Of a DNA stretch of 64,000 nt, positions 15,157 to 39,583 are shown piece by piece (positions within the stretch are counted from its first letter, which is position 1; each line of letters opens with the position of its first letter). The stretch is from NCBI RefSeq assembly GCF_003999255.1, contig NZ_CP034791.1:2582501-2646500 (forward strand). The letters run 5' to 3'. Origin of the DNA: Caldicellulosiruptor changbaiensis (GTDB lineage: Bacteria > Bacillota > Thermoanaerobacteria > Caldicellulosiruptorales > Caldicellulosiruptoraceae). The notes below the pieces were generated by a model. That model saw nothing but the letters and a program-made list of their open reading frames with translations, made no database searches and was not told where the DNA came from. A program made the translations under genes and the position numbers.

Positions 15157-16233
15157 TTAATTATAAACAGCTTTTTTGAGCTCATAATGCCTGCTTTGGC
15201 CAAAACCTTGCCCTACTTTTCTTCCAAGCGAAATAATTATTGATTCAATACATCCTCTGCACTTTGTTGCATCTTCATTTATGCAAATTTTCCCAGGATA
15301 TAGCTCATATTTTAGCTTGTACTTCAGGTCATTTACATTTGGCATAACAATGTTAGCCCCACATTTCAAGCCCTTTTGACGTCCCAGAGGGTCTAACGTC
15401 CCAAGAGCAGTTGTTGCAGGAATGTTACTGTCTGGCATCAAAAGTCTTAATATCGAAATACACTTTAATGTCAGGTCAACAGACCCAGCCTCTGTATCTT
15501 TAAGTGGCGTGTGTGGGTGTGGAATAAAAGGACCAATTCCTATCATGTCGCTATCCAGTTCATATACAAGCAAAATATCATTTGCCAAATCATCTATTGT
15601 CTGGCCAGGTAGGCCAATCAAAAACCCTGTTCCAAGCTCATAGCCTAAACTTTTTATCCACCTCAAACACTCTATTCTGTTCTCAAAACTCATACCAGGA
15701 TGATATTTTTGATAAAGCTCTCTGTTTGATGTCTCAAACCTCATCAAATACCTGTCAGCTCCAGCTTCCCTGAAAGCCTTATATTCTTCATATGACCTTT
15801 CACCAATGCTAAGCGTTATTGCGACATCTACTTCTTTCTTTATTTTCTTTATAATACTGCAAACTTTATCTTTTGTATAATATGGGTCTTCGCCAGATTG
15901 GAGCACAACTGTCCTGTAACCCATATCATATGCTCTTTTTGCAACTTCAACTATCTCATCTTCTTGCATCCTGTAGCGTTGAGCTTCTCTGTTGCTTCGC
16001 CTAAGACCACAGTAAAAGCAGTCGTTTTTGCAGTAGCTTGAAAATTCTATAAGCCCTCTTAAATATACATCGTCACCAACATATTCTTTTCTTACCCTAT
16101 CTGCATATGCAAACAAAAGCTCTTTTTCTTCGCCTTCGCTATTTAACAAAAACTTTATCTCATCTTTTGTAAGATGGTGTTCACTGTAAGCTTTGTCTAA
16201 AATCTCTTTTACTTTCATTTTTTCTTTTCTCAT
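15157..16233 (-). CDS. hydE: [FeFe]-hydrogenase maturase HydE (radical SAM)
   Basis: This 358-residue radical SAM protein carries the cluster motif CKNDCFYC (C68, C72, C75), the HydE-type neighbourhood YLRGLIEFSSYC and GLRRSN, and IGIGPFIPHPHTPL. A second cysteine set near the C-terminus (CRGCIES) fits the accessory cluster of some HydE proteins. HydE works with HydF and HydG to build the diiron site of [FeFe] hydrogenase. PylB/BioB relatives share the fold but not these motifs. GAGGAGA precedes the ATG. No other hyd genes are in the window. Confidence 0.9.
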   Translation of the reverse strand: MRKEKMKVKEILDKAYSEHHLTKDEIKFLLNSEGEEKELLFAYADRVRKEYVGDDVYLRGLIEFSSYCKNDCFYCGLRRSNREAQRYRMQEDEIVEVAKRAYDMGYRTVVLQSGEDPYYTKDKVCSIIKKIKKEVDVAITLSIGERSYEEYKAFREAGADRYLMRFETSNRELYQKYHPGMSFENRIECLRWIKSLGYELGTGFLIGLPGQTIDDLANDILLVYELDSDMIGIGPFIPHPHTPLKDTEAGSVDLTLKCISILRLLMPDSNIPATTALGTLDPLGRQKGLKCGANIVMPNVNDLKYKLKYELYPGKICINEDATKCRGCIESIIISLGRKVGQGFGQSRHYELKKAVYN

Positions 16234-16414
16234 CTTTACTTCTCCTCACAAAAATTCAGTATTTCTATCAGTTTAAAAGGATATTTAATTTTATTATACT
16301 ATATCATAAGTTAATTATAAAGAAAAGCAAGTTGTCAAGAGGTTTTGTATAAACTCAGTAAAACGGTATAGCTATTGATTTTTGTGGTATAATTGAATAA
16401 AAGGAGGTCTTCAG

Positions 16415-18910
16415 ATGGCTATCGAAATCAAAAAAAGCAAAAGTTCTAAAAAACCAAAAAAGCAATCCCCATTTAGAATCTTTATAAGAAGCTTCTTAAA
16501 AACACTTTTAATTTTGATTATTGCAAGTGCTGTAGTTGCAATTGGCGCTGGATTTGGAATGGTCACAGCATACATAAAGGCAATACCACCCAATGCTTTG
16601 GATATAATAACAAGTTCTTCAAATGACAGTCAAACAACTATTGTCTATGACCAGAGTGGAAACGAAATTGCTCGACTTCACGGAAACGAAAACAGAATCA
16701 GAGTACCTTATAGCAAGATACCAAAAAACCTTATCAATGCCTTTGTGGCAATTGAGGATGAGAGGTTTTGGCAGCATAATGGAATTGACATCAAAAGAAT
16801 AATTGGAGCAATTTTCAATAACATCAAAAGTAGAAGTCTTTCTGAAGGTGCAAGTACAATTACTCAGCAGCTTGTGAGAAACAAACTTTTGACATTTGAA
16901 AAATCCTTTAAAAGAAAAATACAAGAACAGTATTTGGCAATTCAGCTTGAAAAAAGATGGACAAAAGAACAAATTATGGAAGAATATTTAAATACAATAA
17001 ACCTTGGGAGCGGCGCTTATGGTGTGGAGGCAGCTGCTTATACTTATTTTGGGAAAGATGTTTCACAACTGACTTTGGCAGAGTGTGCTCTAATTGCAGG
17101 AATTACGCAAAACCCTTCATATTATAATCCTTATGTCTTCCCTGAGCATGCAAAGAAAAAACAAGAGCTGGTTCTCAAAAAAATGTTAGAACTTGGTTAC
17201 ATTACCGAGCAAGAGTATTTAGAGGCTATAAATCAAAAGCTTGTGTATGTTAAAAAAGACCTTTCTGTTGAATATGCTTACAAGCATCCATATTTTGTTG
17301 ATTCTGTAATTGATGAGGCAGTCGAGATCTTATCAAACAAGAAGAGAATATCCCAGGATGAGGCAGAAAATCTTATCTATGGTGGTGGGCTTAAAATCTA
17401 CACCACAATGGATGAGACTATACAAAACATTATGGAGGAGGTATTCTCTGACCCTGCATACATGCCCAAAATTCGTCATTATGATGCATCTGGCACACCA
17501 CAGCCACAGGCAGCAGCAGTTTTGATAGATTTTTCAACAGGGGCAGTAAAAGGTATAATGGGCGGAAGAGGAAATTTAAAAGGCGTAAGGCTTTTAAACA
17601 GGGCGACAATGTCTGTCCGCCAGCCCGGATCTAGTATCAAGCCAATTGCTGACTATGCACTTGCGCTTGAGAATGGATACACTGCAGCAACTATAATTGA
17701 CGATGTTCCATTTTCGGTGGGAGGCTACACACCAAGAAACTGGTACAAGAGCAATGTAGTTGCCGGCAAGCGAGGCTATAAAGGCTTGATGACGGTAAGA
17801 GAAGCCCTTCAGTGGTCTGCAAATGTGCCAGCTGTAAAGGTTGCTTACAACCTTGGTATTCAAAACGTGTACAGAAACCTAAAAAGGTTTGGATTTACAA
17901 CCCTTGCCCCCCAAGATATGAACAGCTTATCAATTGCAATTGGTGGATTTACTTACGGTGTAAAGCCAATTGAACTGACAGCTGCATTTGCAGCAGTTGC
18001 AAATGGCGGAATATATATAAAACCTTATTTTATTGCCAAGATTGAAGACAAAAACGGTGTTACTCTGTTTGAAAGAACACCTTACAAAAGAAAGGTGATG
18101 GATGAGAAAAATGCATATATTTTGACAAATATTTTGCAAAGCGTTGTCACCGCAAGAATTACAGTTGGTGTGAGATTCTCTTACCCTGTTGCCGGAAAAA
18201 CTGGTACAACTGATGATAGTAAAGACAGGTGGTTTGTAGGGTATACACCAAACTATGCTCTTGGTGTTTGGGTTGGTGAAGACAAGCCTGTTGCATTAAA
18301 TTATCTTTATGGTACAAACCCGGCTTTAAAGATTTTTAAAGGTATAATGGACAAGGTTGTGAGCAAAAAAGGTGTAAGTACACAGTTTACAAGGCCTGCT
18401 GGAATTGTTGAAAAGTACGTTTGCAAAGAATCAGGAAAACTTGCAACAGAACTATGTAAGCAAGACCCAAGAGGCAGTCAGGTGATAAAGGAGATATTTG
18501 TCGCTGGCACAGAGCCAACAGAATACTGTGACAGGCATGTTAAGCTAAAAGTGTGCACAGAATCAAAAGCGTTGGCCACCCAGTATTGTCCTAATTTCAT
18601 TGAAAAGGTATTTATTCGCAGAGACAACCCCATCTGGCCTGATGCCTCAAAGTCAATCGTGCCACCTGATGATTATATGTATCAAGCACCAACAAAGTAC
18701 TGCGATGTGCACAAGGCGCCAGTACAGCTTTATCAGGAACAAACAAACCCTCAATCTTCATCCCAAGAGCAAACTTTGCAAAATTCACCTTTTGAAACAC
18801 AAGGCAGCTTTCAAGCTCAAGAGCAGAATAACCAAAGTGAACAAGCACCTGTAGATAATATGCCACAGAACCAAGAAACCACATCAGACGAGGCTTATAG
18901 ACAAAGGTAA
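16415..18910 (+). CDS. Class A penicillin-binding protein (PBP1A-like)
   Basis: This 831-residue bifunctional peptidoglycan synthase has a basic N-terminus, a single helix (about 25-50) and a GT51 glycosyltransferase domain (about 75-245). The GT51 domain has EDERFWQHNGID with the catalytic Glu, GASTITQQL and KIQEQYLAIQLEKRW. A transpeptidase domain follows (about 350-620) with the active serine in RQPGSSIKP and the KTGTTDD triad motif. A cysteine-containing region (about 670-770) and a Gln-rich tail end it. AAAGGAGG precedes the ATG. It acts at the outer membrane face in wall assembly. Confidence 0.93.
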   Translation: MAIEIKKSKSSKKPKKQSPFRIFIRSFLKTLLILIIASAVVAIGAGFGMVTAYIKAIPPNALDIITSSSNDSQTTIVYDQSGNEIARLHGNENRIRVPYSKIPKNLINAFVAIEDERFWQHNGIDIKRIIGAIFNNIKSRSLSEGASTITQQLVRNKLLTFEKSFKRKIQEQYLAIQLEKRWTKEQIMEEYLNTINLGSGAYGVEAAAYTYFGKDVSQLTLAECALIAGITQNPSYYNPYVFPEHAKKKQELVLKKMLELGYITEQEYLEAINQKLVYVKKDLSVEYAYKHPYFVDSVIDEAVEILSNKKRISQDEAENLIYGGGLKIYTTMDETIQNIMEEVFSDPAYMPKIRHYDASGTPQPQAAAVLIDFSTGAVKGIMGGRGNLKGVRLLNRATMSVRQPGSSIKPIADYALALENGYTAATIIDDVPFSVGGYTPRNWYKSNVVAGKRGYKGLMTVREALQWSANVPAVKVAYNLGIQNVYRNLKRFGFTTLAPQDMNSLSIAIGGFTYGVKPIELTAAFAAVANGGIYIKPYFIAKIEDKNGVTLFERTPYKRKVMDEKNAYILTNILQSVVTARITVGVRFSYPVAGKTGTTDDSKDRWFVGYTPNYALGVWVGEDKPVALNYLYGTNPALKIFKGIMDKVVSKKGVSTQFTRPAGIVEKYVCKESGKLATELCKQDPRGSQVIKEIFVAGTEPTEYCDRHVKLKVCTESKALATQYCPNFIEKVFIRRDNPIWPDASKSIVPPDDYMYQAPTKYCDVHKAPVQLYQEQTNPQSSSQEQTLQNSPFETQGSFQAQEQNNQSEQAPVDNMPQNQETTSDEAYRQR

Positions 18911-18923
18911 GAAAATGGGAAAT

Positions 18924-18960
18924 GAAAAGGGACTGCTTTAAAAAAGAGCAGTCCCTTTTG
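18924..18960. terminator. Bidirectional terminator
   Basis: AAAAGGGACTGCT pairs with AGCAGTCCCTTTT with an A-rich loop, between the converging PBP and ugpB genes. Confidence 0.75.
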
Positions 18961-18972
18961 AACTCCTTTAAT

Positions 18973-20325
18973 CTAATAACCAAATATTTGGTTGTATTCC
19001 TTAATGGACTTATTTATCCTTTCCTCAGCATCTTTTAATGCCTTGTCAATAGGATAATTGTTAACAATCACCTTTTCTATATTTTCCTCAATAATTCTAC
19101 GTGCCTCTGGAAACACACCCATTACAGCTCCACGAGTTGCAACATTTATAGGTGTTGCATGAAGTTGATCAATAGCGGTTTTGAATTGAGGATATTTCTT
19201 AAGATGATCAGTCATTTCCTTCAATGTATAAACTCTTTTGTTCACAGGAAAATAGCCTGTATTTTTATGCCAGAACAATTGAGATCGCGGAGACACCAAA
19301 AACTCAATAAAGTTCCATGCCGCCTTTTGGTAATTTTGAGCATGGTTATTTAAAATCCAAAGTGAAGCTCCTCCAATTATAACTCCTTCGTTCTTGTTAT
19401 TATTAAGCGCCGGTATAAAAGCTGTTCCAACTTCAAATTTTTTTCCTACGCCATCTAATATTGTTTTAAGTGAAGCTGTCGATGCAATTATCATACATGT
19501 TTTCCCTGCTACGAATGCTCTGATAGTATCATCATAGTTTCTTCCAAAGTTGCCGGCAATTTTTTCGTCAATAAGTCTCTTCCACCATTTTAATATATTC
19601 TTTCCCGCTTCATTGTTAAAAACTACTTTGGTTGCTCTTCTTTCTCTTCCATTACCATTGTCCAAATATGGTACTCCTTGTTTTGCTAAAAGTTGTTCAA
19701 AATACCATCCATATATCGACATTGAAAAAGCATATCTTGTAATTTGACCTTTTTTGTCTTTTTTAATCAATTTTCTGCCATAATTTTTAATTTCAGTAAA
19801 ACTCTTCGGGGGTTTATTAGGGTTTAAATTAGCTTCTCTAAAAGCAGTTTTATTGTAATAAAGGATAGGTGTTGATGAATTAAAGGGCATAGACCATAAA
19901 GTTCCTTCGACTGTGTAATAAGCTAATAAATTAGGCTCTAACTGATTTAAGTCAAACTTAGCTGATTGTACAAACCTTTGAACAGGTACAGCCCATCCAC
20001 TGTCTATCATAAATCTTGTTCCTATTTCATACACTTGAGCGATATCAGGCCCCTGTTTTGCAGCTTGGGCTGTTTTTAGTTTAGTAATTAAATCGTCATA
20101 AGATCCTTGATATTGGGCAACAATTTTTACACTTTTATTTTTAGAATTGTACTGTTCTACTAAATATTGTAGTGCTTTACCTAAATTACTCCCCATCGAA
20201 TGCCAAAATACTAATTGAATAGGTTTGGTAGTCTGTGAAAAACTCACTTCTTGTGGCAATAAAACTAAATTCATTAATATTGAAACTATCAACAATAAAA
20301 GAATAACAGGATACTTCTTATGCAT
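18973..20325 (-). CDS. ugpB: ABC transporter solute-binding protein, UgpB-like
   Basis: This 450-residue family 1 solute-binding protein has an N-terminal membrane/signal segment (VILLLLIVSILMNLVLLP) but no clear lipobox cysteine. The mature start PIQLVFWHSMG and the segments GPDIAQVYEIGTRFMIDSG and GGASLWILNN match the UgpB group that binds glycerol-3-phosphate or glycerophosphodiesters. It is last in an operon of two permeases. No ATPase gene is present, as is common where a shared MsmX-type ATPase serves many importers. The divergent phosphodiesterase and Pho boxes support the substrate call. Confidence 0.82.
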   Translation of the reverse strand: MHKKYPVILLLLIVSILMNLVLLPQEVSFSQTTKPIQLVFWHSMGSNLGKALQYLVEQYNSKNKSVKIVAQYQGSYDDLITKLKTAQAAKQGPDIAQVYEIGTRFMIDSGWAVPVQRFVQSAKFDLNQLEPNLLAYYTVEGTLWSMPFNSSTPILYYNKTAFREANLNPNKPPKSFTEIKNYGRKLIKKDKKGQITRYAFSMSIYGWYFEQLLAKQGVPYLDNGNGRERRATKVVFNNEAGKNILKWWKRLIDEKIAGNFGRNYDDTIRAFVAGKTCMIIASTASLKTILDGVGKKFEVGTAFIPALNNNKNEGVIIGGASLWILNNHAQNYQKAAWNFIEFLVSPRSQLFWHKNTGYFPVNKRVYTLKEMTDHLKKYPQFKTAIDQLHATPINVATRGAVMGVFPEARRIIEENIEKVIVNNYPIDKALKDAEERINKSIKEYNQIFGY

Positions 20326-20374
20326 TATCTCCCAACCTCCTATTAGGTTTTTTAATGCACAACCTTTAAAATTT

Positions 20375-21202
20375 TCACCCTTTTAAAGCACCTGCCATAA
20401 GTCCTTTAACCAGTTGATTATGCCCCAACAAAAAGATTAAGAAAGTAGGCAGAATAACAATTATTACTCCTGCAGCTATCAAACCAAAATTCTGCTGCTC
20501 AGCAGCTTGCAACATACTAATGCCAAGCTGAACAGTCCTCACCTCATCTTTATCAGTTACAAGTAATGGCCACATATATTGATTCCAGATGTTTATAAAC
20601 GAGTAGATTAAAAATGATCCTATTGCTGGTTTTGAAAGAGGAATAAGAATTTTAACTAAATAATTAATGTTTGAACAACCTTCAATTTTTGCTGCCTCAA
20701 AAAATTCAACAGGTATAGTTTTAAAATATTGTCTTATGAAAAATATCCCAAATGCAGATACAGCATTTGGTAAAATTAGTGCTATATAGGTATTTAAAAA
20801 ACCAAGACTGCGTATTATTAAATAGTTCCCAATAAAGATGGTCTGGGCGGGTATCATTATAGTTGCCAATACAATAAGAAATAAAATATCTTTCACTTTA
20901 TAATTGTAAAAGGTAAACGCAAACGCTGCTGTACATGCAAAAATTACCTGAAGAAGACAAGAAATTATTGCTACAATTAAACTGTTTACAATAAACCTTA
21001 AAAAGGGTGTAAGATTGAACACTTCAACAAAGTTGTTAAAAGTCAATTCAGAAAGCGAAAATTGGGGAGGATATGAAAAAACCTTAGAAGGTGGTTCTAT
21101 GCTTATATATAAAATGTAAAATATTGGAAAGCATATTATCAACGCAATTAGAGTGCTTAAAATAAGTAGCTGAACATTTTTTAGCTTTTCTCTCTTTTTC
21201 AT
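20375..21202 (-). CDS. ugpE: ABC transporter permease, UgpE-like
   Basis: This 275-residue inner-membrane permease has six helices and the EAA loop EFFEAAKIEGCSNINYLVKILIP cut at the usual place, so it belongs to the MalG/UgpE branch. Its ATG overlaps the end of the upstream permease gene by four bases (ATGA). By context it forms the channel with the UgpA-like partner for phosphodiester or glycerol-3-phosphate import. The gene for the binding protein follows about 50 bases on. Confidence 0.87.
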   Translation of the reverse strand: MKKREKLKNVQLLILSTLIALIICFPIFYILYISIEPPSKVFSYPPQFSLSELTFNNFVEVFNLTPFLRFIVNSLIVAIISCLLQVIFACTAAFAFTFYNYKVKDILFLIVLATIMIPAQTIFIGNYLIIRSLGFLNTYIALILPNAVSAFGIFFIRQYFKTIPVEFFEAAKIEGCSNINYLVKILIPLSKPAIGSFLIYSFINIWNQYMWPLLVTDKDEVRTVQLGISMLQAAEQQNFGLIAAGVIIVILPTFLIFLLGHNQLVKGLMAGALKG

Positions 21203-22146
21203 TGGTAGAACACCTTCTTTTCCACCACTTTAAACTGAAACACTGTTAAGATGAATAAAATTACAAACAAGACTATAGACTCTGCACATGCTCTACCAAA
21301 CTTAAAGTTGAAAAAGGCGTCTTGATAAATGGAATAAACCAACAACTTTGTCGAATTTACTGGTCCCCCACTTGTTAGAATATGAACAATCGTAAACTGC
21401 TGAAATGAATCAATAATATTTATTACCAAAACAAAAAACAATGTTGGCGTTAAAAGTGGTAGTATAATTTTCCACACTTTATATAAAAAATTTGCTCCGT
21501 CAATGTTAGATACTTCATACAACTCATATGGTATATTCTGTAAACCTGCCAAAAGAAATATAAAATTAAAAGGTATATTCTGCCAACAATTTATAAGTAC
21601 AATTGACAAAAGTGCTAACTTAGGATCTGTAAGCCATTCTATTTTTCCTAATCCCATTCTTTCAATAAGATAATTAATAATACTTACTGAGGGATTTAAT
21701 AAAATCCCCCATACGATTGCACAAGAGGCTGATGATAAAGAAATTGGAAATGTATATAGAACATTGAATAATTTTGCAAATATTTTAGAGTTATCAACGA
21801 TCAATGCTAAAATCAGCCCACCTATAATAGAGAAAATAGTATTGAATCCAACATATTTTAGTGTAACAATAAAACTATTGATAAAATCTTGCGAATTTAA
21901 AAGCTCAACATAATATGTTATGCCAACAAACCGTTTAGGATTGCCACTAAAGTCAGTGGCCCAAAAACTTGTATAGAGAGTCTTGAAAAACGGGAAAAAC
22001 GTAAAGAGTGTAATAAGCAAGAAAGTTGGTAAAACTAAAATAATAAATTCTAAAATTTCTTTTGGGGGCTTTTTTCTTTTTTTAACAGTAGTTATTTTTT
22101 GCTCATAAACATATTCCATTCTCTTTTTATTTTTCGCTCCTTTCAT
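21199..22146 (-). CDS. ugpA: ABC transporter permease, UgpA-like
   Basis: This permease of up to 315 residues has a cytoplasmic basic N-terminus, six helices and an EAA loop (ELYEVSNIDGANFLYKVWKI) of the MalF/UgpA branch. It is the first gene of the operon. The start is uncertain: ATG 22146 (MKGAKNKKR) has only a weak site upstream, while AAAGGAG lies inside the first codons and ATG 22119 is an alternative. Upstream are Pho-type boxes read toward this gene. Confidence 0.85.
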   Translation of the reverse strand: MKGAKNKKRMEYVYEQKITTVKKRKKPPKEILEFIILVLPTFLLITLFTFFPFFKTLYTSFWATDFSGNPKRFVGITYYVELLNSQDFINSFIVTLKYVGFNTIFSIIGGLILALIVDNSKIFAKLFNVLYTFPISLSSASCAIVWGILLNPSVSIINYLIERMGLGKIEWLTDPKLALLSIVLINCWQNIPFNFIFLLAGLQNIPYELYEVSNIDGANFLYKVWKIILPLLTPTLFFVLVINIIDSFQQFTIVHILTSGGPVNSTKLLVYSIYQDAFFNFKFGRACAESIVLFVILFILTVFQFKVVEKKVFYQ

Positions 22147-22182
22147 TTTTTACTCTGTTAATAATGTATCAAATGAAGTTTA

Positions 22183-22216
22183 AAATTTTTTAAAATTGAT
22201 GTTAAATTATTGTTAA
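22183..22216 (-). promoter_or_regulatory. Pho-box array for the ugp operon
   Basis: On the minus strand two perfect TTAACA boxes (ending at 22216 and 22205) are followed by TTTAAA and TTAAAC at the same 11-bp period. PhoP of Gram-positives binds TT(A/T/C)A(C/T)A repeats spaced 11 bp. A TACATT -10-like hexamer lies about 10 bases downstream, so the boxes cover the -35 position as in PhoP-activated promoters. Confidence 0.7.
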
Positions 22217-22235
22217 ATCTGTTTTTTGCGTTATT

Positions 22236-22289
22236 TTAACATAAATTTAACATAAACTCAATGTTTCTTTAACACGATTGATGTATAAT
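22236..22289 (+). promoter_or_regulatory. Pho-box array and -10 box for the phosphodiesterase gene
   Basis: TTAACA at 22236, TTAACA at 22247, a degenerate TCAATG at 22258 and TTAACA at 22269 form four boxes with exact 11-bp period. TATAAT follows at 22284-22289, 9 bases after the last box. There is no -35 hexamer. This is the layout of a PhoP-activated, phosphate-starvation promoter. Confidence 0.75.
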
Positions 22290-22325
22290 TACATATACAA
22301 AGAAAGTCCAATGAAGGTGAAACCA

Positions 22326-23033
22326 ATGGAAATATTTGCTCACAGAGGTGCAAGTGCATATTATCCGGAAAATACAATGCTCAGTTTTGAAAAGGCAATA
22401 GAAATGGGGTGTACAGGAATCGAAACAGATGTTCAGATGACAAAAGATGGTGTTCTTGTACTTATACACGATGAAAGAGTTGATAGAACAACTGGAGAAA
22501 CTGGTTATGTTAAGGAATTTACTTTCAATGAAATACGTAAGTTAAATGCTGGATATTACAAGCACTTTAAGTTTTGTCAAATACCAACTGCTGAAGAATT
22601 ACTTGAACTTGGAAAAGAAAAAGGCATACATATAAATTTTGAATTAAAAACCTATCATCCTGTAGCTAACCATATTGAGGATAAATTAATCCAACTTATT
22701 TATAAGTATGAAATGCAAAACAACGTTATAATTTCAAGTTTCTTCCAAGAACCATTACTAAGATGTCGCCAATTAGATTCTACAATTCGTCTTGCCTTGC
22801 TTACTACAAAGGCTGTAAAAATTTCCTGTTTGTCGTCTTTAGGCATTCATATTGTTCATCCTATCTATTATCTTACATCTTTCATTGTTCAGCTAAAACA
22901 AAATCATTTTAATGTGAACGTCTTTACTGTCAATAAGAAAAGGCAAATGAAAAAGTTTATAAAACTTAATGTAGATGGTTTGATCACCGATATGCCAGAT
23001 GTTGCATCACAATTAGCTTTATCTCAAATTTAA
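22326..23033 (+). CDS. ugpQ: Glycerophosphodiester phosphodiesterase, UgpQ-like
   Basis: This enzyme of about 235 residues hydrolyses glycerophosphodiesters to glycerol-3-phosphate and an alcohol. Motifs: FAHRGASAYYPENT (catalytic His and Arg), GIETDVQMTKDGVLVLIHDERVDRTTG (metal-binding Glu/Asp and second His) and, near the end, NVFTVNKK and DGLITDMPD. There is no signal peptide, so it acts in the cytoplasm on imported substrate. ATG 22326 has GAAGGTGA ahead; ATG 22311 is also possible. It diverges from the ugp importer and shares its Pho-type control region. Confidence 0.92.
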   Translation: MEIFAHRGASAYYPENTMLSFEKAIEMGCTGIETDVQMTKDGVLVLIHDERVDRTTGETGYVKEFTFNEIRKLNAGYYKHFKFCQIPTAEELLELGKEKGIHINFELKTYHPVANHIEDKLIQLIYKYEMQNNVIISSFFQEPLLRCRQLDSTIRLALLTTKAVKISCLSSLGIHIVHPIYYLTSFIVQLKQNHFNVNVFTVNKKRQMKKFIKLNVDGLITDMPDVASQLALSQI

Positions 23034-23173
23034 CTAAGAGAATATAAAAAATAAATGAATATGATGAATAATTTAAAAACCATTGACTTTGTAGGTTTTA
23101 ATTTTAAAAAGTTTGAGAATCCTGAAATTGGAAATAAAAGAATGTGAAAATTGTTCCTACATTTCCTTAGGCT

Positions 23174-23312
23174 TCAGCGAGGGTACCTCCTTTGTTGTGT
23201 TTTGTCGTAAAGTTGTACAACTTACATTCTGCATTTTACCGGGGAGGGCCCGTATCTTTTCAAATCTCATTTCTCCTCATTTTCACTTATTTTCGTTCAT
23301 TACAGGAATGCT
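23174..23312 (-). repeat. Relic of an IS110 left end (second copy of 25166-25303)
   Basis: About 135 bp match the non-coding 5' end of the IS110 element at 25166-25303 with about 90% identity, in the same orientation, including the TTGTACAACTTA palindrome. Similarity stops at the transposase start codon on one side and at the same terminal ATTCCTGTAATG (minus strand) on the other. In this copy the GGTACC arms of the hairpin are mutated. It may be the remains of a tandem second element. Confidence 0.8.
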
Positions 23313-23882
23313 CTCTCAATATACCTTTGATTTTCTCAAAATATCTCACGATTTCTTTAAATTTCGTTATCGAAACAAACAATTTTGTTCTTGATATTGT
23401 TATTATTGCTTTATTCTACCATGCCCAACTTAGAATTGGTCTCCATCTTGTATTTATCTTGTTATTCTACCATATTACGGCGGGTATTTATCCACAATAA
23501 CCATGGCGTTTACCCTCTCATGTCTCTCAGGGTCTTTTCTCACTTGCCCTCAATTCCCTCGTCCCATCTACCATGGCGTGGACGTCAGTTATGCTTGTAT
23601 GCAGGGTCTTCGCCCGTATGGTGGATGTACTCTGACCACCCGCTCACATTTTCCAATCTACTTACTTTTTATAAAGAATCATTTTATCCTTCTTTCTTCA
23701 CTTGTTACTCTCTATACATTGTTTAAGATGTGAACTCCTACCAAAAGGGGCGCTTTGCTACTCGACATGACTTAATCTCCTCGCAAAGCTAAGAATTTCT
23801 TTACCCCCTCAAGATGTGAATCACTCAAATTATTTCTCCTGCTTTAAACTAAGAATGTTCAAGCAATTTTTCTCACTTCACT

Positions 23883-25169
23883 TCACGCTGTCCTTGCTAA
23901 AGCCTCTCTCTTTATATCGCTCAACATCTTGTTCCCATCATACTTTACGCCTTTTTTCAAAATCGCATAAAATACCCTTATCAATTTACAACACAGTGCT
24001 ATTAATGATTGCTTCTTCTTCAAGGGATTGTTCTCTCGCGTGGTGTAATACCTGTGCAGCTGCTTAAATTCTTCATTCTTTGCTACTATTGTAATCATGG
24101 CCTTGAACAAGCTACTTCTGAGCCTCCCTCGCCCTCTTTTACTTATACACGTCTGACCCTTGTACTTGCCAGAACTATTCTCAACTATATTGAGTCCCGC
24201 CAATTTCTGTATCTGTCTCGCATCCTCATACCTCTTTATATCTCCAACCTCAGAAATAAAGCCAACTGCCGTTTTTACACCAACACCTTTTATTTTAAGC
24301 AGTTCCTCTCCATTCGGCACCTCTCTCAAAAGCTCTGCCATCTCGGCTTCTATCTCTTCTATCTGCTTCTTTAAAAGCTCATATTGACTCAGCAAATATT
24401 TTATCTCTTGTCTTGCCAGCTTTCTCCCTTCTTTTTTACCTATACTCCTTTTGGCAGTCTCTACTAAATCCATCGCCCTCCTGCGACTAATCGCTCGCCT
24501 ATCTACTTTGTCACGCCAGTACTCTATAATCCCTTCCACTTCATTTTCCACTACATCACAAGGCAATGGCACCTCCTTTAATGTTTCTATTGCCGTCTTG
24601 CCTTCCCAATCAGAAAATACTTCTAAAAACTCTGGAAAATACATATCGAGCCAGTTGATTATTTGATTTTTTAAAACGTTCAGCTGTTTTTGAAGCCTTT
24701 CATATATGTTCATCGCTACTCTCATCTCAGCATATATACCCTCGGGTATATTTGGCTCTGTATATCTTCCATCCTTCACAAGCATCGCTATCGTCTTCGG
24801 ATCCTTTATATCGCTCTTAGTTTGCGTACTATCATCAAGCTCCTTGCTCCTCTTCACGTGAAAAGGATTCACTAAAACCACTTTTATGCCATTCTCTCTC
24901 AGATACTGCTCAAAGCACAGCCAGTAATGCCCTGTAGGCTCTATCCCTACTATCATGTTGTCTTTGCCATTTGCTTTCATTATCTTATTTGCCCAATCCA
25001 AAAATTTCTCCATACCTTCTTTCCTATTCTCAAACTCTATTCTCTTGCCAAGCTCCACTCCTCTAAAATCAAATGCTCTGCCTACATGCCTTTCCTTTGC
25101 TATGTCTACTCCTACAACTAAAGTTCTCTCTGTTACTTGTAATATCTTTTCATTTTGTGTATACTTCAA
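23883..25169 (-). CDS. IS110-family DEDD transposase
   Basis: This protein of about 428 residues has the N-terminal RuvC-like DEDD domain: VVGVDIAKERH (D), IVGIEPTGHYW (E) and STQTKSDIKDPKTIAML (D..D). A coiled central part and a C-terminal transposase-20 domain (LLKIKGVGVKTAVGFISEVGDI, LAGLNIVENSSGKYKG) with the conserved serine follow. I took TTG 25169, 8 bases after GGAGG. That ribosome binding site lies in one arm of a hairpin, a common brake on IS expression. The gene is intact. Confidence 0.88.
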   Translation of the reverse strand: MKYTQNEKILQVTERTLVVGVDIAKERHVGRAFDFRGVELGKRIEFENRKEGMEKFLDWANKIMKANGKDNMIVGIEPTGHYWLCFEQYLRENGIKVVLVNPFHVKRSKELDDSTQTKSDIKDPKTIAMLVKDGRYTEPNIPEGIYAEMRVAMNIYERLQKQLNVLKNQIINWLDMYFPEFLEVFSDWEGKTAIETLKEVPLPCDVVENEVEGIIEYWRDKVDRRAISRRRAMDLVETAKRSIGKKEGRKLARQEIKYLLSQYELLKKQIEEIEAEMAELLREVPNGEELLKIKGVGVKTAVGFISEVGDIKRYEDARQIQKLAGLNIVENSSGKYKGQTCISKRGRGRLRSSLFKAMITIVAKNEEFKQLHRYYTTRENNPLKKKQSLIALCCKLIRVFYAILKKGVKYDGNKMLSDIKREALARTA

Positions 25170-25173
25170 AGAG

Positions 25174-25241
25174 GGTACCTCCTTTGTTGTGTTTTGTCGT
25201 AAGTTGTACAACTTACATTCTGTATTTTACCAGGAGGTACC
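25174..25241 (-). promoter_or_regulatory. Hairpin hiding the transposase ribosome binding site
   Basis: GGTACCTCCT (25174-25183 on +) is the exact complement of AGGAGGTACC (25232-25241). Between them lies a perfect 16-bp palindrome centred on TTGTAC (25200-25215). In the minus-strand transcript the AGGAGG that serves the TTG start would be paired, limiting translation of readthrough mRNA. Confidence 0.65.
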
Positions 25242-25303
25242 TTATCTCTTCAAATCTCATTTCTCTTCATTTTCACTCATTTTCGTTCATTACAGGAATG
25301 CTC

Positions 25304-25499
25304 GTAAAAATACACTGAATCCTCATCCTTTTCTATCACAGAAAAAAGTTCCCGTTTGCATTTTTCAAGCTTGCCATATGTTATTTCACCCTCAAATACA
25401 GAGTTTTGTACCCAAGTGAGGTACTTTTTCAAAATTTTTCGAACTTTATTCACACGTTTTTCATTAACGTCGTATGTAACTATTACAAATATTTTGCAT
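25304..25499 (-). pseudogene. cas2: cas2, broken at both ends
   Basis: Minus-strand codons read MKIFVIVTYDVNEKRV, then LTWVQNSVFEGEITYGKLE and EDSVYFY, which is plainly the first 65 codons of a Cas2 nuclease-fold protein (ferredoxin-like, D10 in TYDV). Two defects are visible. An extra C at 25496, right after the ATG, shifts the start codon out of frame, and a TGA precedes the correct frame. The IS110 end then replaces everything after codon 65 of about 88. No C-terminal part was found on the far side of the element. Cas1-Cas2 integration from this locus is therefore unlikely. Confidence 0.85.
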
Positions 25500-25631
25500 C
25501 ACTCCCTCATAGGAAGATAACTTCCAATACCAAAGTCTCTTATAAGAATATTAAAAAATTTTTTGTGGATAAATCTTACTTAAACTTAACTCCAATTAAG
25601 GATAAATCCAATTTGGTTAACACATTGTCCA

Positions 25632-25680
25632 CGTGCTAAATTCGTTTTTAGATATCAACCATTTAACTACATTTAGCACG
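25632..25680. repeat. Perfect 10-bp inverted repeat between cas1 and cas2
   Basis: CGTGCTAAAT at 25632 and ATTTAGCACG at 25671 flank a 29-base AT-rich loop. It lies in an unusual gap of about 250 bp between cas1 and the cas2 relic, genes that normally abut. It may be a hairpin in the operon mRNA or the ends of a small mobile repeat. No gene is seen in the gap (25500-25746). Confidence 0.6.
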
Positions 25681-25746
25681 CTGTGCCCGTAAAAAATGTC
25701 CCATAATTTGCTTTTTAACTTCTGTCAGGTGTCTTTGCAAGAGTTC

Positions 25747-26727
25747 TCACCACCACGCTTTTAGAGGTGAGTAAACTTGATCTCCTATAAAATGCTTTAT
25801 AAGCTTATAACACTCAAGCCTTATATATCCTTTGTAAGATACATTTCTGTTAAGCTGCCTGTGACGAACTGTTGTCTCAAGCTTGTTCCTCAGTTCATTT
25901 ATAAATATCCTTCTTCCCTCTTGATTCAAATAGCAATAATTCAAATCCTCATCAAAGTGTTCAAGTGTAATCTGGCGATTATTTAAAAGTTTGAAAATTA
26001 CGCTATCTACAACAAGAGGCTTAAAAATCTCTGAGATGTCAAGGCTGAGTGAAAACCTTTTTTCACTTGGTTCATGCAAAAAACTTATACTCGGGTCAAG
26101 CTGGGTGTGGTAAATCTCTGTTAAAACTGTGCTGTAAATCAGGCTATTTCCAAATGAAATCAAAGCATTTATCGGATTTGTCGGTGGTCTTTTTTCACGC
26201 TTTTCCATGTAAAAGTCTTCTGGCAAAAACTGATTGAAAGACGAATAGTAAATATTCCTCACTCTCCCCTCAAGCCCCATAAGCTCTGATATGCTTGAAA
26301 TGTTAAACCTGCCATTTTCCCATTCATCTTCAATTGCATTTAAAAAAGCCTCTGCTTCTTTTCTTTCTCTTAAATTTCTCATCATATGATAAACCGCTGA
26401 TTCGACAAAACAGTATGCCAAGAAGATTCTCTTTTCCCTATCAAGATAATGAAGTGCTTGCCGAACAACAACATCTCCAGAAACGTTTTTCTTGCGCGGC
26501 ATAAAGCTTCCTGCATAAAATCCATAATAGTTGTAAAAGTGAAGAATTATGCCGTATTGAGAGATATAATTCAAAGCCTTGGTATTCAAATCAACCTCAC
26601 CAAAGATATGAATTTGTTCAATGTTTTCGATGTCAATTGACCTCTTTTCAGTCTCTGTCTCAAAGTACAAGGTATTGTCTTTTCTGCGAAGTCTGCCATT
26701 TGAGGTAATGTAAAGTGTTTTTTGCAT
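25747..26727 (-). CDS. cas1: CRISPR integrase Cas1
   Basis: This protein of about 326 residues starts at ATG 26727 (MQKTLYITSNGRLRRK), 6 bases past the cas4 stop. It has the N-terminal beta domain (RSIDIENIEQIHIFGEV) and the alpha-helical catalytic domain with E in MGLEGRVRNIYY, H in SFLHEPSEKR and acidic residues in SLSLDISEIFKP. It belongs to the type I-B branch. In a complex with Cas2 it inserts new spacers at the leader end. It looks intact, but its cas2 partner is broken. Confidence 0.95.
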   Translation of the reverse strand: MQKTLYITSNGRLRRKDNTLYFETETEKRSIDIENIEQIHIFGEVDLNTKALNYISQYGIILHFYNYYGFYAGSFMPRKKNVSGDVVVRQALHYLDREKRIFLAYCFVESAVYHMMRNLRERKEAEAFLNAIEDEWENGRFNISSISELMGLEGRVRNIYYSSFNQFLPEDFYMEKREKRPPTNPINALISFGNSLIYSTVLTEIYHTQLDPSISFLHEPSEKRFSLSLDISEIFKPLVVDSVIFKLLNNRQITLEHFDEDLNYCYLNQEGRRIFINELRNKLETTVRHRQLNRNVSYKGYIRLECYKLIKHFIGDQVYSPLKAWW

Positions 26728-26732
26728 AGCTT

Positions 26733-27245
26733 TTACCCCCAGCAAAACTCAAAATACGCACAGGATTTGCATATTTTTTGCTTTGTAGCCGGCGGTGGAG
26801 TTACTTGAGAGGTTATTTTTTCTATTTCACTCAGCGCCTGCTTTACTTTTTGTTCATACTCAGGTGTAAGTTCTAAGATTTCTTTCCTGCGTTCTTTTGG
26901 ATAGTTGATTATACCTTGCTTTTCTATTCCTTTTTGCTTTAGATAGTAAAGATAATACATAACCTGCATTATATCTGCCTCTTTCATTCTGCTGCTGTAC
27001 TTTACCTCTCTCACTGCCCCATCTGATAGAATGTCAATCATAATAAGATTGTCTATCAAAACCTCTTTTGCATCTTCCTTAGGATAAGAATACTCATGCA
27101 AAACCTTGCCAAGCAGGACCTTGTCAGACTGATTTTCAAATGTGATGTTTTTGCTAAAAAGCCAGAGCTTTCTTTTGCAAACATAAAGGTAGTTGATTTT
27201 AATGCCTTGGAATTTGAGATCTTGCAGTTCCATTTGTTCAGACAT
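26733..27245 (-). CDS. cas4: CRISPR-associated nuclease Cas4
   Basis: This protein of about 170 residues is a RecB-like nuclease with an iron-sulfur cluster. The N-terminal cysteine lies in YLYVCKRKLW and the other three in ICKSCAYFEFC at the C-terminus. The PD-(D/E)XK core is visible as LIDNLIMIDILSDG, then REVKYSSRMKEADIMQVMYYLYYLK. Cas4 trims prespacers and helps choose the PAM side. ATG 27245 (MSEQMELQ) fits the family better than 27257. It lies between cas3 and cas1. Confidence 0.93.
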   Translation of the reverse strand: MSEQMELQDLKFQGIKINYLYVCKRKLWLFSKNITFENQSDKVLLGKVLHEYSYPKEDAKEVLIDNLIMIDILSDGAVREVKYSSRMKEADIMQVMYYLYYLKQKGIEKQGIINYPKERRKEILELTPEYEQKVKQALSEIEKITSQVTPPPATKQKICKSCAYFEFCWG

Positions 27246-27279
27246 CTCAAAAATCACTCTCTTATCGAAAATTTAACCT

Positions 27280-29508
27280 TCAAATCATTTCAGAAAGAAT
27301 AACTTCTTCATAGTTAATTCCAGTATTGCTATCATATCCTAAATTCAAAATATAAATATCATTAAAGAAATTGCGAGGTTTTTCTATAAACTTTTCTACC
27401 CTCCAATAAGGAACTTCAACAATATATTCCGAAAACCTGTCAAATATCTTTGCTTTCTCTGCAACATTTTCTGCAGCAGAATATTGTTCAAATAGCTTCT
27501 TAGCTTCTTCTCTATACATCTGAGGTATAGCACGCACATTAAATATGTTCCTCAAACTTTCATGTACTTCTTGTTTTTCAAATTCTCCATCAAATATACT
27601 TTCGATTAAATTGAGCATTTCTCTGAATTTGTTATAATACTTAGTATCTTTTATTCTTTCATAGGAGTATAATTCTTCTACCAATTTTGCCTTCTCATTT
27701 TCTGAAATGATTTTTTTATCAAAATTCTTTAGCATTTCTAAACTTATACTATGAATATCTTTATCATATACCTTACCTATACCAGAAACATTTCCAGTAT
27801 ATATGTACACATTAGGTTCTTCTTGGTCATATTCTCTTTTTCTGTAACAACGACCCATTCGCTGGAATAAACTATCAAGAGTAGAAAGTTCGGTAAATAA
27901 AAAGTCAAAATCAACATCAATGGATGCTTCTATGATTTGAGTGGTAATCCAAATACCACTGGTGCTTTTTGGCTGTATACTCTTTATCCTTTCTTCTTTT
28001 TCACGCCTGTGCTTTTGAATAAACTGGGAATGCAATAGCTCAACTTTTATTTCTTCGCCAACCGCCTTTTTTATTTGTTTATAAACCTCTACTGCCTTTG
28101 CTATTGTATTTGTAATAACTAAAACATTCTTTTCCTTTGCTAACTCTATTATTTTGCTAATGTCAGCCTGAATATCTTTTTCCTTTATCTTTATTCTGTG
28201 TCTTTTTATTTGTGAATGATATTCAATTGTTTCAAAATTAATACCCTTTTCTTTTAAATAGTCTTTGTAAATTGTAGGAAGAGTAGCTGTCATTATCAAA
28301 AATCTTGTTCCAAACTTGTGCAGCATTTCTATGCCCTTTAAAATAGTTGCAGCAATAACAGGTGAATATCCTTGAATCTCATCAATGATTATTTTTGAAT
28401 AAGCAAGAGTTGCTAATATTCTTTCATAGCCTTTAAACCTAAACGGAAAAGTAAACACTTGATCCATTGTTGTAAGCAAAAGTTGTTTCCCCAAGTATTT
28501 AGAAGATTGATAAATGGAAAATGCATCTTGGTGGTCATCTTCTTCGAAAAGTAAATACTGCAAACTTGTTGAATGCAAAAGCCCTACACTTTTAATTCCA
28601 ACATCTTTTGCTATTCTTGAATACATCATATTAAGAGCAGCTCTCATAGGAAGAATAAAAAAGGTTTTAGCATCCTCTGACCACATAAGGGCTGCTTCAG
28701 TCTTTCCACTTCCGGTTGAAGCTATGAGTATTAGGTTTTTGCCTTTGTTATCTTTTATTAGGTCTTGTAATTCATTTAACTTTTTAAAAGTATTTAGAAT
28801 ATAACATTGGGTTTTGCCAAATAGATTTTCTTTAGTTGTGTCTTCAACATCTACATGCGCAGAAGCGCAATGGTCTATCCTCACAAGAAGCCCTTTTAAA
28901 AGAATGTAAACAAGTAGTTCTACTTCATTTTCTCCTCCTTTTTTATCCCACCAAACAAGTCTATTGCTACTTGAAACATATTTGTAATACTTTTTATTAA
29001 GACTTGTTAAACTTATCTTTAATTTAGGATTGAGAAGTTGGTTGTTTATAATATCAATCTTTGGTTCTAACTCTTCCTTAATTACCCTTACAATCAGTTC
29101 ATATAAAACATCATCGCAAAGACTATCTCTCTCATGATGGTAGATGATTGCCTGCATAAATGCTCTTTCATAACCAGAATACTTCTGCAAAAGCCTTTTC
29201 GGAACAAATGCTGGTGACAAATAAGAATGCGGAATACTATTTTCAAATGTGGTCTTTAAAGCTTCCTTTTTCAAATGTTTTCTGATAACATTCTGAAAAG
29301 GGGTAAAAAGTTTTCCACAATCATGTAAAACGCATGCTGAATATAGCATATCCCAAAAAATATCTCTAACATTATCGGGTAAAATCGAATCTATTTCTTT
29401 TTTGTAGACATCTTTTAAAATCTGAAAATTATGTATTAGACTATCCACATGTTCTTGTAAGGTCTCTGGTGGTTGAGACTTTGCATAGATAACAATTTTA
29501 TCATTCAT
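27280..29508 (-). CDS. cas3: CRISPR helicase-nuclease Cas3
   Basis: This 742-residue protein has an N-terminal HD nuclease domain (H20 region, H62-D63 in VLHDCGKLF, and IIYHHERD) and a superfamily 2 helicase. The helicase has Walker A ASTGSGKTEAAL (about 270), the DExx box IIIDEIQGYSP, TATLP motif III, ITTQIIEASIDVD, and QRMGRCYR motif VI. It degrades DNA once Cascade has bound a target. It starts 8 bases after cas5. No defects seen. Confidence 0.94.
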   Translation of the reverse strand: MNDKIVIYAKSQPPETLQEHVDSLIHNFQILKDVYKKEIDSILPDNVRDIFWDMLYSACVLHDCGKLFTPFQNVIRKHLKKEALKTTFENSIPHSYLSPAFVPKRLLQKYSGYERAFMQAIIYHHERDSLCDDVLYELIVRVIKEELEPKIDIINNQLLNPKLKISLTSLNKKYYKYVSSSNRLVWWDKKGGENEVELLVYILLKGLLVRIDHCASAHVDVEDTTKENLFGKTQCYILNTFKKLNELQDLIKDNKGKNLILIASTGSGKTEAALMWSEDAKTFFILPMRAALNMMYSRIAKDVGIKSVGLLHSTSLQYLLFEEDDHQDAFSIYQSSKYLGKQLLLTTMDQVFTFPFRFKGYERILATLAYSKIIIDEIQGYSPVIAATILKGIEMLHKFGTRFLIMTATLPTIYKDYLKEKGINFETIEYHSQIKRHRIKIKEKDIQADISKIIELAKEKNVLVITNTIAKAVEVYKQIKKAVGEEIKVELLHSQFIQKHRREKEERIKSIQPKSTSGIWITTQIIEASIDVDFDFLFTELSTLDSLFQRMGRCYRKREYDQEEPNVYIYTGNVSGIGKVYDKDIHSISLEMLKNFDKKIISENEKAKLVEELYSYERIKDTKYYNKFREMLNLIESIFDGEFEKQEVHESLRNIFNVRAIPQMYREEAKKLFEQYSAAENVAEKAKIFDRFSEYIVEVPYWRVEKFIEKPRNFFNDIYILNLGYDSNTGINYEEVILSEMI

Positions 29509-37036: not shown

Positions 37037-39583
37037 GTTTACATCCCTCATAGTTCAGATAAAACAGGGATTAAAAACCGAGTAGTTCAGTAGGAATTAA
37101 TTCGTTTACATCCCTCATAGTTCAGATAAAACTTGCTATGTGATGTAACTCCTAAACCTTCTCTTGCAGTGTTTACATCCCTCATAGTTCAGATAAAACA
37201 CGACGGACGATAGACCAGGCTTTTCTTGAAATGATTAGTTTACATCCCTCATAGTTCAGATAAAACGCAGCAAAAAGCAAAGCTTGAACAACCATTTGCT
37301 TTGTTTACATCCCTCATAGTTCAGATAAAACGTGTTAGAAAAAATTCGAGAGGCAAACGCAAGGTTACGTTTACATCCCTCATAGTTCAGATAAAACAGT
37401 CGCAGCTCATTTATGAACGAATACATACCAAACACGTTTACATCCCTCATAGTTCAGATAAAACATGTTCGTGTATATGCCTTGTGCAAGCATATCCATC
37501 GTTTACATCCCTCATAGTTCAGATAAAACAAAGCTTTGGGGAGGGAATAGAAATGAGAACAATGAGTTTACATCCCTCATAGTTCAGATAAAACCTTGAC
37601 TTTGGCTATGCTGTTGACCCTGCAGCCTATGGTTTACATCCCTCATAGTTCAGATAAAACTATCAAAGCCGCTTCGTTTGTTACAGACACAATTAAAGTT
37701 TACATCCCTCATAGTTCAGATAAAACACCGCAAAATCCCTCCCAGTTGCCATATCGCAAAGCTTGTTTACATCCCTCATAGTTCAGATAAAACAAGTATG
37801 GCGACGTTTAGACAGATTTATATTTCGTATGTTTACATCCCTCATAGTTCAGATAAAACCTAATAAAAGCTTTTTAAATGAGGTGTAATAGAGAAGTTTA
37901 CATCCCTCATAGTTCAGATAAAACATCGTATCAGCTATTATAAGAAACACAAAACAGCAAGTTTACATCCCTCATAGTTCAGATAAAACTTCGGGGCTGC
38001 GGCGCAAGGTTGCAGCGTTCCCAGCGTTTACATCCCTCATAGTTCAGATAAAACTGAGGATGAGCGGAATTCAATTCCGGTCACCGATTCTTGTTTACAT
38101 CCCTCATAGTTCAGATAAAACCAGCGCACAGCAACCCAGCTGGCGTGGGCGGGGCGGCGTTTACATCCCTCATAGTTCAGATAAAACGCGATAGTATGTA
38201 GCAGTTTCAATTTCAAGTTCATCGTTTACATCCCTCATAGTTCAGATAAAACAAGAAACTGGGTTAAGGCGTTTTAAAGAAACACTTTTTTGTTTACATC
38301 CCTCATAGTTCAGATAAAACTATCACTACTAAAATTTCGCTTTTTAAAGTTTTGAAAGGGTTTACATCCCTCATAGTTCAGATAAAACCAGCCAAATTTA
38401 TCGCAAATGCAGATTTGCCCATCGCGTTTACATCCCTCATAGTTCAGATAAAACAAAACAATTTAAAACAGGTTGCAAAACTATTCTATCGTTTACATCC
38501 CTCATAGTTCAGATAAAACCTATTTAGTTCTGCCACGTTGCTTATCTTAGCCAAAGTGTTTACATCCCTCATAGTTCAGATAAAACAGACTCATTAACAC
38601 GTTTAGCAATAATTTATGAAAAACAGTTTACATCCCTCATAGTTCAGATAAAACACAGCTTTTGGAGAAAAACCCAAAGTTACAGATATTCGTTTACATC
38701 CCTCATAGTTCAGATAAAACTTAAAAAGTAGATAAGCCCCTACAACACCTAAAACAACGTTTACATCCCTCATAGTTCAGATAAAACAAGGAGGGATTAG
38801 TGATGATATTTGTTATAACTAAAGAGTTTACATCCCTCATAGTTCAGATAAAACGCAACAGCAAATTAACGAGCTGTTAACAAAAGATTAGTTTACATCC
38901 CTCATAGTTCAGATAAAACTAGCTCGTTTTTTTAACGTAACAGTTGACTATTTAATGTTTACATCCCTCATAGTTCAGATAAAACTTCCTCAAATTCTCA
39001 AGCAATCTTGCAGACCAAATCTGGTTTACATCCCTCATAGTTCAGATAAAACAGCAGGCAAATTCAAGATGGCAGAAGAAGTAAGGAAGTCGTTTACATC
39101 CCTCATAGTTCAGATAAAACTAGCTAAACAATGCTAATATTGTTAAACCACCAGCGTAGTTTACATCCCTCATAGTTCAGATAAAACGAGTAAATGCACA
39201 GGACATGTTGCAATTAACGTCTGCGTTTACATCCCTCATAGTTCAGATAAAACAAAAAATCAATAGTCCACAAATTGTGAACAAATTGTTAGTTTACATC
39301 CCTCATAGTTCAGATAAAACAACTGTAGATAGAAAATTTTTAACCAAGCAAGCGTTGTTTACATCCCTCATAGTTCAGATAAAACGCAGATAGTCGCTGA
39401 TGTAGGGAAAAAGATTGATATAGTTTACATCCCTCATAGTTCAGATAAAACTTTCATCCCAAATTTGAGAGTTGTATCTGTTTTTCTTGTTTACATCCCT
39501 CATAGTTCAGATAAAACTTTAAAAAATTTGATGAAGCTTTGCAAAGACTTAAAAGTTTACATCCCTCATAGTTCAGATAAAAC
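37037..39583 (-). CRISPR. CRISPR array, leader-proximal part (39 repeats, 38 spacers)
   Basis: 39 copies of the 29-bp repeat, apparently all identical, start at 37037, 37104, 37171, 37238, 37303, 37369 and so on to 39489 and 39555, with spacers of about 35-39 bases. The last repeat abuts the leader. In the minus-strand reading the repeat begins GTTTTATCTG and ends GGGATGTAAAC, like other type I-B repeats. Spacer 38788-38825 carries AAGGAGG and an ATG, as a phage gene start would. Including the spacer split by IS21, the whole array has 47 spacers. Confidence 0.98.

Follow-up and report, generated by a model that had tools for sequence, protein, structure and literature searches.

Divergent PhoP-box promoters predicted between the ugp importer genes and ugpQ in Caldicellulosiruptor changbaiensis

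Our analysis of a 64,000-nucleotide stretch of the Caldicellulosiruptor changbaiensis genome (the window; contig NZ_CP034791.1, positions 2,582,501 to 2,646,500, forward strand) suggests, with a probability that we put at about 0.88, that the intergenic region between ugpA and ugpQ contains two divergent Pho promoters, which would induce import and cleavage jointly at low phosphate. Because these back-to-back switches stand between their genes, the importer and UgpQ would probably be made at once under phosphate hunger. The two arrays fit the Bacillus-type PhoP box, stand before plausible target genes and are largely ordinary in kind.

On each strand of the region, four TTAACA-like hexamers recur with an exact period of 11 bp and are followed, 9 bp further on, by a -10 box. 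An earlier sequence-only reading had described four hexamers at this spacing and a -10 box on both strands; reading the sequence confirms that layout, and the earlier counts of perfect hexamers are correct. The extent given there, 22183-22289, stands at its rightward end, but the leftward promoter runs past 22183 to 22163. In window coordinates the elements are as follows.

22236..22289, + strand: predicted rightward PhoP-box promoter of ugpQ; 38.7 bits, in register in the sister genomes G005 and G006
TTAACA 22236-22241, TTAACA 22247-22252, TCAATG 22258-22263, TTAACA 22269-22274, + strand: rightward hexamers, three of four perfect
TATAAT 22284-22289, + strand: rightward -10 box, 9 bp beyond the last hexamer
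22163..22216, - strand: predicted leftward PhoP-box promoter of ugpA-E-B; 33.4 bits, in register in G005 and G006
TTAACA 22216-22211, TTAACA 22205-22200, TTTAAA 22194-22189, TTAAAC 22183-22178, - strand: leftward hexamers, two of four perfect
TACATT 22168-22163, - strand: leftward -10 box, 9 bp beyond the last hexamer

Of the two arrays the leftward one is weaker: its third and fourth hexamers and its -10 are all weak. Scores in bits come from a weight matrix of 54 columns, built on 26 sister-genome sites that were picked by hand from 110 pattern matches in genus genomes and are partly redundant because they are orthologous; the ugp/ugpQ sites, all sites of this genome, duplicates and doubtful rows were left out of the training. 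The next site in the window after the two arrays scores 13.8 bits. Both arrays consist of direct repeats of the published Pho-box type, TT(A/T/C)ACA with a spacer of 5 +/- 2 bp (PMC3036859), and both lie directly upstream of the -10 at a fixed distance, the 9-bp gap being shared by the ugp, ugpQ, pstS, pstB, phoA and MCP arrays.

The genes on either side of the region are the following.

21199..22119, - strand: ugpA, permease; best match NCBIfam UgpA, 176.8 bits (cut-off 335)
20375..21202, - strand: ugpE, permease; best match NCBIfam UgpE, 126.5 bits (cut-off 297)
18973..20325, - strand: ugpB, substrate-binding protein; best match NCBIfam UgpB, 249.6 bits (cut-off 411)
22326..23033, + strand: ugpQ-like glycerophosphodiester phosphodiesterase; Pfam GDPD, 168 bits (cut-off 23.6)

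We placed the start of ugpA, whose open frame begins at 22146, at a conserved MEYVYE by comparison with G005 and G006; ugpQ starts at the ATG at 22326, after AAGGTG. UgpA, UgpE and UgpB all fall under their NCBIfam equivalog cut-offs, and UgpQ scores 121.7 bits against the glycerophosphodiester phosphodiesterase equivalog (PRK09454), below its cut-off of 264. At the level of families, the earlier naming of importer and phosphodiesterase as ugp and UgpQ holds on the NCBIfam, Pfam and PDB matches. The best PDB match of UgpQ is the GDPD 2pz0, and those of UgpB are the UgpB sequences 4aq4, 6x84 and 9lff (206.9, 204.2 and 178.7 bits), with any other binding protein at 85.5. By eye we saw no signal peptide in UgpQ, and the enzyme is probably cytosolic. 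Further along the window, at 23883-25211 and 25747-29508, we noted by eye a transposase-like frame and Cas1-, Cas4- and Cas3-like frames.

A published study of Phaeobacter UgpB names nine ligand contacts (PMC12718374), and in our UgpB eight of these glycerol-phosphate contacts are kept (Y76, E100, S151, W207, S282, G319, Y358 and R409). The first clamp Trp is lost, its place being taken by M202 in the contact alignment and by I204 in a MAFFT alignment, and it is lost as well in five other aligned UgpB sequences of relatives. According to that source, the two clamp Trp arose in the G3P-type UgpB as it evolved from a related glycerophosphocholine-binding type (PMC12718374), so a diester may be the ligand here. 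The ligand may be G3P or a glycerophosphodiester, either of which is compatible with the loss. No ugpC was found by eye among the open reading frames of at least 100 aa at 16000-28000, and one OB_MalK-type ATPase is encoded elsewhere in the genome. By analogy with the CUT1 importers of Caldicellulosiruptor bescii, which share MsmK and likewise combine CUT1 permeases with a binding protein and no ATPase of their own (PMC8579813), UgpA-E-B is probably served by a shared MsmK-type ATPase; the substrates there are sugars, whereas here a glycerol phosphate compound is the putative cargo.

How would such a region work? From the arrays, the gene company and the protein families we infer PhoP binding, induction, substrate and ATPase sharing in the following way. 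At low phosphate, the PhoR/PnpS-like kinase would phosphorylate PhoP, and PhoP~P would bind the four head-to-tail hexamers directly upstream of each -10, in place of a -35 element; because there is one hexamer per helical turn, all of them would lie on one face of the DNA. Bound PhoP~P would recruit RNA polymerase to each -10, so that the ugpA-E-B and ugpQ units would be made together. UgpA-E-B, powered by the shared ATPase, would import glycerol-3-phosphate or glycerophosphodiesters, and cytosolic UgpQ would split the diesters to yield glycerol-3-phosphate.

Could the importer instead serve carbon, as a CUT1 glycerol-phosphate/sugar importer for which the Pho site is a secondary input? We consider this unlikely, though it draws support from six genomes that we take to be Thermoanaerobacter-like (G014, G016, G020, G032, G033 and G034; loci L134, L135, L132, L133, L131 and L130), in which ugpAEB is preceded both by a terminator-like leader and by a gene like glpP, which encodes an antiterminator that responds to G3P. 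The GlpP-like product has a G3P_antiterm domain in both of the two cases scanned, the other four being assigned by their similar start. Computational folding of five of the six terminator-like leaders gave z from -3.7 to -7.0. Moreover, phosphate and carbon are both described as controlling ugp in Escherichia coli (PMC4415409). However, all six loci also carry a Pho array upstream of glpP (21.7-35.5 bits), with a long hairpin between array and glpP and, in several, a T run after the hairpin. Given these six arrays, we rejected the idea that GlpP replaces Pho as the control of ugp in these relatives. In our genome, on the other hand, the sequence between the leftward array and ugpA contains neither glpP nor a terminator, and the phosphate-contact residues of UgpB are kept; both observations argue for phosphorus rather than carbon.

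For the six relatives, the arrangement suggests a two-input gate on ugp, opened by low phosphate and G3P together. More tentatively, and with rather less than even odds in our judgement, the ugp module of this genus may have descended from such a two-input operon, with its Pho array and its GlpP antitermination at a leader terminator: the GlpP gate would have gone, a divergent Pho-driven ugpQ would stand in its stead, and UgpB without the first clamp Trp would take glycerophosphodiesters, not free G3P. If true, this would make the ugp importer a dedicated phosphorus scavenger.

The reading of the region as a pair of Pho promoters gains support from the rest of the genome. The sequence-only reading had proposed looking for the 11-bp-period motif near pst and pho genes. 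We searched the genome with a three-hexamer pattern and with the whole pattern, taking neighbours from open reading frames and family scans, and found the identical layout of four 11-bp steps, 9 bp and a -10 box before pstS-C-A, pstB-phoU and pstS2-phoA, as well as before a gene resembling a chemoreceptor (genome coordinates).

1688988-1689041, - strand: Pho array before pstS-pstC-pstA, 45.6 bits
1242219-1242272, + strand: Pho array before pstB-phoU, 51.2 bits
2890151-2890248, + strand: Pho array of eight hexamers before a second pstS and then alkaline phosphatase (pstS2-phoA), 40.2 bits
2882497-2882550, - strand: Pho array before a dCache_3/HAMP/weak MCP-domain gene, 45.1 bits (L033)

Each named Pho array of this genome is separated from its -10 by 9 bp. 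With up to three mismatches, the whole pattern occurs eight times in the genome, as compared with one match of the reversed control. Seven of these matches are the ugp, ugpQ, pst, phoA (counted twice) and chemoreceptor-like arrays; the eighth, at 1539218, is unexplained: it has two mismatches, is present also in G008 and G011 and is without a proper -10.

Thus, as in a Bacillus-type system, the element stands before pst and alkaline phosphatase genes in a genome that also has phoPR. The candidate regulator is a response regulator and sensor kinase pair at 1238025-1240427 (G000, this genome), near a PiT transporter, a PhoU-like gene and pstB-phoU. The response regulator is of the OmpR family and scores 250.7 bits as YycF and 246.1 bits as PhoB, both under cut-off; the kinase, with Cache-like and PAS domains, scores 398.4 bits as PnpS (cut-off 400) and 327.5 as PhoR. 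We read the pair as PhoP/PhoR and not as YycF because of its position and its kinase, since the family scores by themselves do not separate the two. The absence of PhoP, which had been named as grounds for giving up the phosphate-starvation reading, is therefore not what the genome presents: a PhoB/PhoP-type regulator and a PnpS/PhoR-like kinase lie beside pit and pstB-phoU, and together with the pst and phoA sites they support that reading. A different OmpR-type regulator, for instance one like WalR/YycF that would put the genes under carbon or envelope stress and not under phosphate, seems to us very unlikely to be the one that binds the arrays. OmpR-family regulators have direct-repeat sites in common and the YycF score is the higher of the two, which would favour such a regulator, but the sites precede phosphate genes here and throughout the genus, and the kinase beside pit and pstB-phoU is PnpS-like.

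The chemoreceptor-like gene itself (G000:C1:2880421-2882457, - strand) has dCache_3, HAMP and MCP-like parts and a signalling tip that, by eye, is off the usual pattern; the genome has five CheW-domain matches. Of the 12 genus genomes 11 have the gene, and a Pho array of this 54-mer type occurs in those same 11. Receptors linked to phosphate are known in kind: Pseudomonas aeruginosa is described as having two chemoreceptors for phosphate, and one of them senses it via PstS (PMC4926252).

Among relatives, the whole pattern with at most three mismatches gives 110 matches in the 12 genus genomes against 36 for reversed-pattern controls, and with at most one mismatch 91 matches in 81 genomes against a single reversed control, the matches being spread over 45 of the 81. 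Since the pattern is so widely shared, the PhoP-box-like array is not a local oddity. Sites for pstS, pstB and phoA are present, by 54-mer similarity, in all 12 genus genomes; their gene context was read in G000 for each of these sites and, for phoA, in G001 and G005 as well. The ugp genes are rarer: UgpB is found at E <= 1e-30 in three of the 12 genus genomes (G000, G005 and G006), and a search with ugpQ returns the same three and a weak match in G002 (E = 1e-10). In all three ugp-bearing genomes ugpA and ugpQ diverge, and each of the two arrays is retained together with its 9-bp gap, the matrix giving 34.4 and 24.6 bits on the ugp/ugpQ arrays of G005 and G006. A scan of named genomes with UgpA returned only 14 loci of Meiothermus, Thermus and Deinococcales, 33-40% identical, with no close relative among them.

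That the ugp/ugpQ arrays are chance repeats in AT-rich intergenic DNA can be dismissed as hardly credible, for although the region is AT-rich and a high-scoring site also falls at an implausible place, the hypF-hypC junction, no site in 20 random windows scores above 9.9 bits on the matrix, as compared with 33.4 and 38.7 here, the arrays are in register in two sister species although the sequence between them differs, and the same grammar stands before pst and phoA. Of 100 first-order Markov windows as long as the window, two contained a site with at least two perfect hexamers among four phased ones and at least 18 of 24 matching positions, the best total being 19; the totals of the two arrays are 21 and 20 of 24. 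The junction site (G000:C1:1755347-1755400, + strand, L031) is antisense to hypF, scores 29.3 bits, only 4 bits under the leftward ugp site, and recurs at 19-29 bits in all 12 genus genomes; at either end it runs into coding sequence or a ribosome-binding site. It is either a coincidence or an unexpected antisense promoter, and because it scores so high, a matrix score alone is not proof. The weak three-hexamer matches at 187998, 434080, 650311, 1635895, 1948435, 1958317, 2041722, 2190512, 2307929, 2576879 and 1266919 we put down to chance, having read their neighbours and found no matrix match of at least 12 bits; another, at 2621355 (window 38855-38882), has no matrix match in the window scan.

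Several further arrays in sister genomes were noted in passing. Near ugpQ, G005 (L128:12453-12610) and G006 (L129:10818-10975) have another pair of divergent Pho arrays, one before a metallophosphoesterase and one before a 5'-nucleotidase that is found in two of the 12 genus genomes; the rightward array of this pair is weak (14.6-16.7 bits). Also in G005, ugpE and ugpB are separated by an opposite-strand frame of 476 aa (L128:5519-6949) that resembles an insertion sequence and may split the operon. Pho arrays precede a second pstB-phoU in G001 (L136) and G005 (L139), followed by EAL/GGDEF and exopolyphosphatase-like proteins, families having been scanned in G001 only. In G007, one array (L141:7008-7061) precedes what is likely an importer of the phn type, consisting of a phosphonate-binding protein that carries a Big_5 domain and of an ABC ATPase, and another (L140:7467-7520, 39.4 bits) a BtrH_N/DUF4872 protein, an unexpected target.

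The E. coli ugpBAECQ operon has PhoB boxes, not PhoP boxes. Our system resembles it in that a Ugp importer and UgpQ are under Pho control (PMC4415409), which is here predicted, and differs in that the genes there form one operon, whereas here there are two divergent units and no ugpC. With the PhoP box of Bacillus subtilis (the Pho core binding region) our arrays share the TT(A/T/C)ACA repeats, the spacer of about 5 bp and the position upstream of phosphate-starvation genes (PMC3036859); here, however, the spacer is exactly 5 bp, there are four repeats and the 9-bp gap is fixed in six arrays of this genome. The PhoPR regulon of B. subtilis likewise includes a Pho-controlled glycerophosphodiesterase (glpQ/phoD), the enzymes there being described as acting on wall teichoic acid (PMC6232261); the enzyme considered here, for which Pho control is predicted, is cytosolic-looking and paired with an importer. 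In a literature search, with most subscription journals out of reach, we found no account of a Caldicellulosiruptor Pho regulon, and published regulon work on the lineage concerns carbohydrates, PhoP and ugp being absent from its main text (PMC8579813).

More generally, the promoter grammar of four hexamers at 11 bp, a gap of 9 bp and a -10 box finds Pho promoters across relatives at little background. Its by-products are a chemoreceptor-like protein, conserved across the genus and putatively under Pho control, and what may be a two-input gate on ugp in relatives. For the organism itself, the divergent promoters would tie the scavenging of organic phosphorus to the Pho regulon in what is apparently a lineage of thermophilic lignocellulose degraders.
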